The notes under the pieces were generated by a model, which had not been told where the DNA came from, ran no database searches, and saw only the letters and a program-made list of their open reading frames with translations. The position numbers were made by a program, and so were the translations under genes. A stretch of 64,000 nt of DNA from Nitrospirota bacterium (GTDB lineage: Bacteria > Nitrospirota > JACRHL01), in assembly GCA_016212085.1 (NCBI GenBank), contig JACRHL010000021.1:1-64000 (forward strand), read 5' to 3'. This document shows positions 10,104 to 56,188 of the stretch, piece by piece. The number at the start of each line of letters is the position of its first letter. The stretch's first letter is position 1.

Positions 10104-10315
10104 GCGATACCTCCCCTTCCCCATCCAAGAAGAAAGTCTCCCCCATCGCGCATGTCACGCTGGATTGTCAGTCCATGTAACTTTAGCACAAATTAGCCAA
10201 GCGCGATTCATGCGCTTCGTCATGCGGACGAACTGCTATTTACCGGCATGGCCCGCCGCCGTGCTAGCATTGGGGATGCCCCCTTGATCCGGGCCATTTC
10301 TCATGGAGCGTCGCC
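10104..10315. other. Divergent intergenic region
   Basis: This 212-base gap between the Cys-rich gene pair (minus) and the VOC gene (plus) contains a locally AT-rich stretch (10170-10210), likely promoter DNA. A possible -10 (TAGCAT, about 10264) precedes the VOC gene. No coding sequence is seen. Confidence 0.4.
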
Positions 10316-53107: not shown

Positions 53108-53191
53108 CTAGACCAGAATCAGCCAGATGCTGAACACGGAGGCGGCGATTCCGGCCATGCACAGGTTCATATGGATGATGAGGGTCTTCAT
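53108..53191 (-). CDS. 27-residue membrane peptide
   Basis: The frame encodes MKTLIIHMNLCMAGIAASVF then SIWLILV. The ATG at 53191 has GGAGG five bases upstream, a good site; an in-frame ATG at 53218 preceded by GGAGAAGG would give 36 residues. It is a single hydrophobic helix with one Cys. The ending S-x-WLILV resembles the peptide at 56096. The 5' leader (53220-53300) is rich in potential hairpins, for example GGAGAGGCCGTGCAGCCTCC. Function is unknown. Confidence 0.5.
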   Translation of the reverse strand: MKTLIIHMNLCMAGIAASVFSIWLILV

Positions 53192-53439
53192 GATTGCCTC
53201 CATGGCAGCGGTGCCCATTTTACCTTCTCCAAGCAGTGACCGGAGAGGCCGTGCAGCCTCCCCGTGATCCAAACCAACCCCGATATGTTGCATACCCCGT
53301 GCCAGGAATGCCGTGGCCGCCCCGCGGACCACGGGCCGGGCGGGGCCTCGCTGTCTTCAAGGAACGCCCCCCGTGCCGGGGGGGCGTGGGGGGAGGGAGG
53401 GGGGTGTTCAAAAGTGGGCACCCCGGCCGCACAAGGTGT

Positions 53440-55090: not shown

Positions 55091-55507
55091 ATGTCCATCC
55101 CCGTCATCGAATGCATCAAGCGCTGCACCGCGAACCCGGCGTTCCTGGACCGTTTCTACGAACTGTTCACGAGCAACCCGGCGGTCCGCGAGAAGTTCTC
55201 CAAGACCGACTTCGACCGCCAGAAATACCTGCTCGGCCACATGCTGGTGATGCTCATCAAGCACGCCTACGGCCTGCGCGGGGCCGACGAGCGCCTGACC
55301 GAGGTGGCGCGCCGCCACGGCACGGGCGACCTGAACATCCCCCGCTACATGTACAACGATTGGATCGACTGCCTGGTACGCGCGGTGCGCGAGACCGAGC
55401 CCAACCTCCCCGATGAGGTGATGGGCGACCTGCGGCGGGTCATGGAGGCGGAGGTGGCCACCTTCATCAGCCGCGCGGAAAACCCGACGAACGCCCCGGC
55501 CACCTAG
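55091..55507 (+). CDS. Single-domain bacterial globin
   Basis: The 138-residue all-helical protein shows globin spacing: FLDRFYELFTSNPAVREKFS, KTDFDRQKYLLGHMLVMLIK, then LTEVARRHGTGDLNIPRYMY with the probable proximal His in RRHGTGDLNIP, and a closing helix MGDLRRVMEAEVATFISRAE. It should bind heme and sense or detoxify O2 or NO. It is coupled to the PilZ-like gene, which suggests a gas-linked c-di-GMP response, but this is inference. Confidence 0.82.
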   Translation: MSIPVIECIKRCTANPAFLDRFYELFTSNPAVREKFSKTDFDRQKYLLGHMLVMLIKHAYGLRGADERLTEVARRHGTGDLNIPRYMYNDWIDCLVRAVRETEPNLPDEVMGDLRRVMEAEVATFISRAENPTNAPAT

Positions 55508-55603
55508 GGCCTGTTGACAAGCCCCTGGGGCGACAACGCAATGCGTTGATTTTCATGATACATATCATGCTCCCCCGTGTGTCGGGGCGCTACGTTTGAA
55601 TTG
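55508..55603. other. Palindrome-rich spacer upstream of the structured RNA motifs
   Basis: It begins GGGCCTGTTGACAAG, resembling the end of the mobile element at 47270 (GGGCCTGTTAGCACA). Two palindromes follow, CAACGCA-A-TGCGTTG (about 55536-55550) and ATGATA-CA-TATCAT (about 55556-55569). A possible remnant of a mobile element or an operator region; no gene. Confidence 0.45.
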
Positions 55604-55681
55604 GGTGAGGGGGGGCTGGGCCACGGCGGTTCTCCCCCATCGTACCGGCGAGGCCTGAGGATTCCGGTGCTCCCCCTCACC
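55604..55681 (+). ncRNA. Riboswitch-like structured motif, copy 1
   Basis: A closing stem GGTGAGGGGG/CCCCCTCACC encloses GGGCCACG, GGTTCTCCCCCA, ACCGGCGAGGCC and TCCGGTG. The same ordered words occur in copy 2 (55771-55847), although the closing stems differ in sequence. Conserved interior plus covarying stem is what a cis-acting RNA shows. A U-tract terminator follows 16 bases later. The class is not securely identified; strand is chosen from the terminator and the copy 2 promoter. Confidence 0.6.
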
Positions 55682-55696
55682 TACTGACGGGTGACG

Positions 55697-55721
55697 AAAA
55701 GGGCGTTCGTGCCCTTTTTTT
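55697..55721 (+). terminator. Intrinsic terminator after motif copy 1
   Basis: AAAAGGGC-GTTCGT-GCCCTTTTTTT: a stem of GC pairs extended by A-T pairs and followed by seven T. It would end the transcript from copy 1 or act as its expression platform. Confidence 0.8.
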
Positions 55722-55734
55722 GTGCAACATTCGC

Positions 55735-55762
55735 TTGCCTTACATTGACCGTCTGGTATACT
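55735..55762 (+). promoter_or_regulatory. Sigma-70 promoter for motif copy 2
   Basis: TTGCCT (55735-55740), a 16-base spacer and TATACT (55757-55762). The predicted start (about 55769-55771) coincides with the first base of the closing stem of copy 2, as expected for a leader RNA. Confidence 0.65.
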
Positions 55763-55770
55763 CCCGCGCC

Positions 55771-55847
55771 GGTGGGGCGGGGTGGGGCCACGAGGTTCTC
55801 CCCCAATCTGACCGGCGAGCCCGTACCATCCGGCGCCCCGCCCCACC
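55771..55847 (+). ncRNA. Riboswitch-like structured motif, copy 2
   Basis: The closing stem GGTGGGGCGGGG/CCCCGCCCCACC surrounds GGGGCCACG-A-GGTTCTCCCCCA, ACCGGCGAGCCC and TCCGGCG, the same interior as copy 1 with different stem sequence. It starts where the promoter at 55735 would begin transcription. Some 250 bases downstream lies a gene for a 30-residue membrane peptide. From memory the interior vaguely recalls ion-sensing riboswitches such as the DUF1646 motif, but I cannot confirm that alignment. Confidence 0.6.
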
Positions 55848-56095
55848 ACCCCACGGCCGGGCGGCGCGGTGGAGGCCGGTCTGCCCTTTCCGTGCATTTT
55901 TGTGACAAAAGGCAGTCCGAAACCGTTCCCGGGCGTGCTATGCTCCGGCCCTCGGGTGGCCGCCGGGGTGCGGAGGGCCGCCGCCGCGGCATTCCATGTG
56001 GAATGGCCCGGAGCTTGCACTTGGATTTTGGTTGGATCCTGTGTCTGCGAGTGCCGCCCGTGGCGGCCAAACCCCAGTCGGAGATTCGCCCGATC
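55848..56095. other. Leader between motif copy 2 and a small peptide gene
   Basis: The stretch contains an imperfect hairpin CTGCCCTTT...AAAAGGCAG (about 55879-55914) and a -10-like TATGCT near 55939. It could be an expression platform or a second promoter. No credible larger gene is seen. Confidence 0.4.
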
Positions 56096-56188
56096 ATGAT
56101 GCAATCCCGCTCCATGCTGGCCCAGCTCATTTGCGCCACCTGCTTCACCCTGCTGTCCATGGCCTGGCTGCTGATCCTGGTCGCCTGA
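56096..56188 (+). CDS. 30-residue membrane peptide
   Basis: The frame encodes MMQSRSMLAQLICATCFTLL then SMAWLLILVA, one membrane helix with two Cys. Its end (SMAWLLILVA) resembles the peptide at 53108 (FSIWLILV). GGAG lies 12 bases before the first ATG. It is the first frame after two riboswitch-like motifs, so it may be their regulated gene. Function is unknown. Confidence 0.45.
   Translation: MMQSRSMLAQLICATCFTLLSMAWLLILVA

Follow-up and report, generated by a model that had tools for sequence, protein, structure and literature searches.

The 64,000-nt stretch of DNA analyzed here (the window, 71% GC) contains an intergenic region (55508-56095) that lies between a globin gene and a membrane-peptide gene and holds two related units on the + strand. 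The features of this region and of the flanking genes are listed here in the order of their positions.

55091..55507, + strand: single-domain globin gene, the upstream neighbor of the pair and a possible clue to its functional setting (phmmer match to 1tu9 (PA3967), E = 4e-14)
55534..55548, + strand: terminator-like hairpin CAACGC-AAT-GCGTTG followed by ATTTTC, which would end the globin unit
55554..55569, no strand: perfect palindrome CATGATACATATCATG, FNR-like (ATGAT-N4-ATCAT), centered at -41.5 from a predicted +1 at 55603
55591..55596, + strand: putative weak -10-like element TACGTT, located 7 nt upstream of copy 1; a -35 element is absent
About 55603..55682 (unit 55604-55681), + strand: copy 1 hairpin RNA, stem GGTGAGGGGGGGC/GCTCCCCCTCACC, C-rich loop TTCTCCCCCA
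55696..55720, + strand: intrinsic terminator of copy 1, stem GAAAAGGGC/GCCCTTTTT with T7 (-12.3 kcal/mol, z = -2.5)
55735..55762, + strand: sigma-70-type promoter ahead of copy 2, with the hexamers TTGCCT-N16-TATACT and a TG preceding the second one (9/12 matches)
About 55771..55848 (unit 55771-55847), + strand: copy 2 hairpin RNA, stem GGTGGGGCGGGGTG/CGCCCCGCCCCACC, C-rich loop the same as in copy 1
55852..55903, + strand: possible but weak terminator of copy 2, hairpin CACGG..CCGTG and then CATTTTTG (-25.8 kcal/mol, z = -0.9)
56096..56188, + strand: gene for a 30-aa single-span membrane peptide, probably its own unit (homologs in genomes G003, E = 7.8e-5, and G002, E = 5.2e-4)

The layout is promoter, hairpin, and terminator, then promoter, hairpin, and a second hairpin with five T, and then a separate membrane-peptide gene.

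The paralogous units and their closing stems

The two units are paralogous and have a length of ~78 nt each. In register, copy 1 runs from stem GGTGAGGGGGGGC through the interior TGGGCCACGGCGGTTCTCCCCCATCGTACCGGCGAGGCCTGAGGATTCCGGT to stem GCTCCCCCTCACC, and copy 2 from GGTGGGGCGGGGTG through GGGCCACGAGGTTCTCCCCCAATCTGACCGGCGAGCCCGTACCATCCGG to CGCCCCGCCCCACC. Both interiors contain the conserved boxes GGGCCACG, GGTTCTCCCCCA, ACCGGCGAG, and TCCGG. The original prediction had described these four boxes as shared in the same order and spacing; all four are present in both copies and in the same order, but the gaps between them (2/1, 4/5, and 10/9 nt) are one base apart each. Copy 1 and copy 2 are 76% identical over 77 nt, and the local alignment of unit against unit scores 38 compared with 11.6 +/- 2.3 for dinucleotide shuffles (z = 11.7). 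Local alignment of the interiors without the stems gave z = 10.2 against dinucleotide shuffles, whereas against shuffles the 80 nt upstream of the units show no similarity between the copies (z = -0.3) and the 80 nt downstream show marginal similarity only (z = 2.9). Similarity is confined to the ~78-nt unit and the promoters have none; therefore, it is the RNA that appears to have been kept and not the flanks. In a BLASTN search of the whole genome (2.7 Mb, 99% complete) with copy 2 as a query, the sole match was copy 1 (E = 1.4e-6).

The closing stems had been described as different sequences of perfect complementarity. They are indeed different, with a sequence that is only partly common to the two copies, but they are longer than described (13 and 14 bp) and include one G-U pair each. 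Among the 13 aligned pairs, two are fully compensated (A-U to G-C and G-C to C-G) and two more are half-changed, which, as a comparison of two sequences, is modest evidence. Sliding the stem partners by 1-3 columns reduces the pairing from 100% to 46-65%. Finding a stem by itself says little because 10-bp inverted repeats that are 50-75 bp apart are not rare at 71% GC, having 20 start positions in the window. However, the combination of compensated stems and a nearly unchanged interior with diverged flanks implies selection, and the unit-bounded conservation together with the compensated stem points to an old duplication that may have been retained for its RNA.

We considered three candidate folds of the interior, namely A (GGGC/GCCC plus GGU/ACC), B (GGUUC/GAGCC), and C (two small hairpins). 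The predicted fold differs between the copies, A being best for copy 1 and B for copy 2. In the best fold of copy 1, GGGCC/GGCCU, CG/CG, and CGGU/ACCG are paired and the C-rich stretch lies in a 13-nt loop; in the best fold of copy 2, GGUUC pairs with GAGCC and CC with GG, and the CC beside the U is paired. In both predicted folds, at least part of the shared C-rich stretch GGUUCUCCCCCA is unpaired.

Transcription signals and the oxygen/NO context

The start of each unit coincides with a predicted transcription start. For copy 1, the center of the palindrome (55561.5) is 41.5 nt from the first base of the stem (55603), and palindromes of this kind are expected by chance only 0.03 times per window even with one mismatch allowed. 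The site ATGATACATATCAT, centered at -41.5 from the predicted start at 55603, has the form (TTGAT-N4-ATCAA-like) and the position (-41.5 or farther upstream) of FNR/DNR-type sites, although ATGAT-N4-ATCAT is one base per half-site off the FNR consensus, the outer base differing from the Escherichia coli consensus. A site centered at -41.5 with a weak -10 element and no -35 element is the textbook arrangement at class II promoters on which CRP/FNR-family proteins act as activators, and the absence of a -35 element before copy 1 is what is expected for such a promoter. The putative copy 1 promoter is thus identified from the spacing of the palindrome, and its start site is a predicted one.

The TTGCCT-N16-TATACT promoter that the original prediction had positioned to initiate copy 2 is present, with TATACT located 8 nt before the first base of the unit, and it is the only sigma-70-type site in the 1 kb scanned, where 0.2 per kb are expected in a shuffle. 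The T7 terminator (55696..55720) was likewise found where it had been reported, 15 nt after copy 1, and there is no ORF between copy 1 and this terminator. The hairpin with five T after copy 2 is no better than shuffles (z = -0.9). Overall, the view of the two units as structured, independently initiated RNAs is supported by this anatomy and by the compensated closing stems. A minus-strand reading gave only matches that reflect stem symmetry, without a promoter, and was rejected.

Genome-wide, we found 12 WTGAT-N4-ATCAW sites compared with one for the reversed control, and most of these 12 FNR-like sites appear inside coding sequence. Two CRP/FNR regulators encoded in the genome score over the family cut-off, and both have E..S-type recognition helices. 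The globin next to the pair (55091-55507) matches no Pfam model at E 0.001 and has five paralogs elsewhere in the genome (G000:C16, C18, C21, and C22). Because of the palindrome geometry, the FNR-like sites in the genome, the CRP/FNR regulators, and the globin neighbor, a link of the pair to oxygen or NO is a reasonable reading of the sequence.

Single-domain globins are expanded in this genome, with six matches in 2.7 Mb compared with 1-4 in sister genomes. The FNR-like sequence TTGATGTGGATCAA (L028:1501-1514) lies upstream of an NnrS-like gene, which we take to be NnrS, and ATGATTTTAATCAT (L025:1501-1514) lies upstream of an HPP-like membrane protein gene beside a gene for an Rrf2 regulator, whose closest match is NsrR without reaching the NsrR equivalog cut-off. 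These palindromes at the NnrS-like and HPP-like/NsrR-Rrf2 genes likely mark an NO-responsive regulon.

Searches for relatives, the membrane peptide, and alternative explanations

No family was found in Rfam 15 at either gathering or permissive thresholds, the only matches being chance ones to miRNA and snoRNA models (E > 0.5), and BLASTN with the whole region against 60 related genomes, plasmids, and phages found no homolog. A covariance model (R1) recovered only its own copies from 396 genomes of the phylum, 395 of them relatives, in a search whose first pass may lose distant relatives, and again only its own copies from three same-family genomes searched in more detail; a three-mismatch pattern in the family genomes found none besides these copies. 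Several other candidates were rejected. The exact interior pattern has one match in 85,000 species genomes, which lies inside an open frame of Acidimicrobiia without a stem and is attributed to chance; three matches to a similar pattern in viral contigs have no flanking stems and were also judged to be chance; and the weak covariance-model matches elsewhere comprise the stem only. The element thus appears to be an orphan in all data searched. The original prediction had named a lack of homologs with the conserved interior elsewhere as a refutation, and such homologs were absent from everything searched, though the paralog pair itself shows selection.

The original prediction had placed the pair before a 30-residue membrane peptide. 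The ORF is real and conserved in two further genera, but it begins 250 nt downstream of the pair. Its relatives, MPVFANLICGTCFALAAMGWLVLLAG and MPVFAQIFCITCFAAAAMGWLMLLAG, are encoded in two sister genera of the family, and the element is absent upstream of both (G002 and G003). The sequence TGC-TATGCT at about 55939 resembles TGC-TAGCCT before one of these relatives and may be the peptide's own promoter. The window peptide (56096-56188) matches no Pfam model.

Single-span membrane peptides of 26-30 residues with the pattern ICxTCFxxxxMxWLxxL are thus found in three genera (56096-56188; L017:1498-1578; L018:1498-1578). A perfect hairpin, TGTACAAAAT-GGGGGAGGG-ATTTTGTACA, which is a possible operator, lies upstream of one sister-genus peptide (L018:1258-1286), and a degenerate form of it lies near L017 1268-1290. 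Within the window, a second tiny membrane-peptide ORF, MEAIMKTLIIHMNLCMAGIAASVFSIWLILV (53108-53203, - strand), has a weak resemblance (C...S..WLILV) to the peptide at 56096-56188 and is possibly its paralog.

The ligand-binding leader originally proposed for this locus, in which copy 1 would control the adjacent terminator and copy 2 the 30-aa membrane peptide, would account for the variable, compensated stem around a conserved interior, as in tandem riboswitches, and for the placement of a terminator 15 nt past copy 1, a promoter directly before copy 2, and a membrane-peptide gene downstream. However, nothing is encoded from the copy 1 terminator to copy 2's own promoter. Past copy 2 come a terminator-like hairpin and a candidate separate promoter before the peptide gene is reached, and, unlike in tandem riboswitches, no expression platform is tied to an ORF. 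Because the terminator stem and the closing stem share no sequence, it is also not obvious how the formation of one would exclude the other. As a rule, riboswitch classes are found in many genomes, whereas this motif matches no riboswitch class in Rfam, was found in no other genome searched, and is missing upstream of the peptide's relatives. We therefore consider a riboswitch quite unlikely at this locus; covarying stems around a conserved interior do not necessarily indicate one.

Slightly easier to entertain, though still unlikely, are protein-binding or structural RNAs. In this case a protein, and not an mRNA, would contact the long stem and the conserved interior, and the RNAs might act as decoys, 6S-like in shape, that capture RNA polymerase or some regulator. 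The long flush stem that begins at the transcription start, the sequence-conserved interior, and the C-rich loop that is identical in both copies would all suit such a role, but the units are half the length of 6S RNA and have no Rfam match to it, and they lack the repeated GGA-type motif of Csr decoys. The pair might instead be a tandem duplication of a hairpin or 3'-end element that now lacks a function and is decaying, or consist of DNA-level inverted repeats. This view agrees with its restriction to two copies in one genome and with the frequency of inverted repeats at 71% GC; we regard it as very unlikely given that the stem changes are compensated and the interior is almost unchanged while flank similarity has been lost, and that, unlike REP or MITE elements, the unit has no dispersed copies.

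A possible pair of tandem sibling sRNAs

The reading that we prefer, with somewhat better than even confidence, is that of a tandem pair of sibling sRNAs that act in trans and expose a C-rich, anti-SD-like loop, copy 1 being probably controlled by oxygen or NO through the CRP/FNR family. As in known tandem siblings, two similar predicted RNAs (76% identity, z = 11.7) are adjacent in one intergenic region, and the genome contains an Hfq gene. The 5' end of each unit would fall no more than a base or two from its transcription start, and the long GC stem would lock the RNA. The stretch GGUUCUCCCCCA could base-pair with G-rich 5' untranslated regions or ribosome-binding sites and block translation, probably with the help of Hfq. 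A CRP/FNR-family regulator acting at the palindrome centered at -41.5 would turn on copy 1 when oxygen is low or nitric oxide is present, and copy 2, expressed from its sigma-70-type promoter, may be constitutive. In this proposal, the paralogy, the compensated stems, the palindrome and its spacing, and the Hfq and CRP/FNR genes are observed, and from them we infer transcription, the identity of the regulator, the base-pairing mode, and the targets.

Several sequences could serve as targets of such sRNAs. Pairing would be possible between the shared stretch UUCUCCCCCA and GGGGGAGA, which occurs 0-14 nt before an ATG at 33 places in the genome; among the 30 inspected, few resemble real gene starts. 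One of these few is the start of a globin paralog (L061), where the loop complement immediately precedes the ATG in the context AGAGGGGGAGACATG. Additionally, the copy 1 loop has a 12-nt perfect complement, CGATGGGGGAGA, at 10137-10148 (- strand) of the window, ~40 nt upstream of the point where a gene for a small Cys-containing protein (..YLWHFCVNCSGWP..) likely begins. As candidate targets these matches are suggestive, being post hoc picks that may be due to chance. A wider proposal, to which we assign a low probability, is that respiratory or NO-detoxifying genes including the globin paralog are tuned by a new lineage-restricted structured RNA, duplicated so as to have one oxygen/NO-inducible copy and one sigma-70-type copy or, less likely, that the RNA binds a ligand in a pocket of its interior.

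Sibling sRNAs that lie in tandem and carry C-rich anti-SD loops are well documented (PMC3712013, PMC5362039). In Rhizobiales, AbcR1 and AbcR2 (alpha-r15) are homologous tandem sRNAs that are encoded in one intergenic region as independent units with intrinsic terminators (PMC3712013). The pair described here resembles them in its tandem intergenic homologs and its C-rich anti-SD loop (UCUCCCCC here and UCCUCCC there), and Hfq is present here too; however, AbcR1 and AbcR2 have three hairpins whereas each unit here is a single hairpin whose closing stem has 13-14 bp, there is no sequence match and no Rfam match, and promoter 1 here has an FNR-like site. NmsRA and NmsRB of Neisseria are tandem siblings with ~70% identity, their own promoters, and anti-SD motifs, and are under stringent-response control (PMC5362039). 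The tandem organization is the same and the identity comparable (70% there and 76% over 77 nt here), but the Rfam scan revealed no sequence relation, and control by the stringent response is a property of the Neisseria pair. If transcribed, the units would be an undescribed sRNA pair from a little-studied uncultured lineage, located beside a globin gene and, as it appears, under an FNR-type regulator, and would add another case of sibling sRNAs with C-rich loops whose origin is separate from that of the RNAs in rhizobia, Neisseria, and Firmicutes. Among the firmicute RNAs, RoxS/RsaE has C-rich loops that pair with ribosome-binding sites and is induced by NO through a redox regulator (PMC4409812). 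Although RoxS/RsaE is a single gene of Firmicutes, is controlled by ResDE, and has no sequence match here, it shares the C-rich loops and is under redox/NO control of the kind suggested for copy 1.
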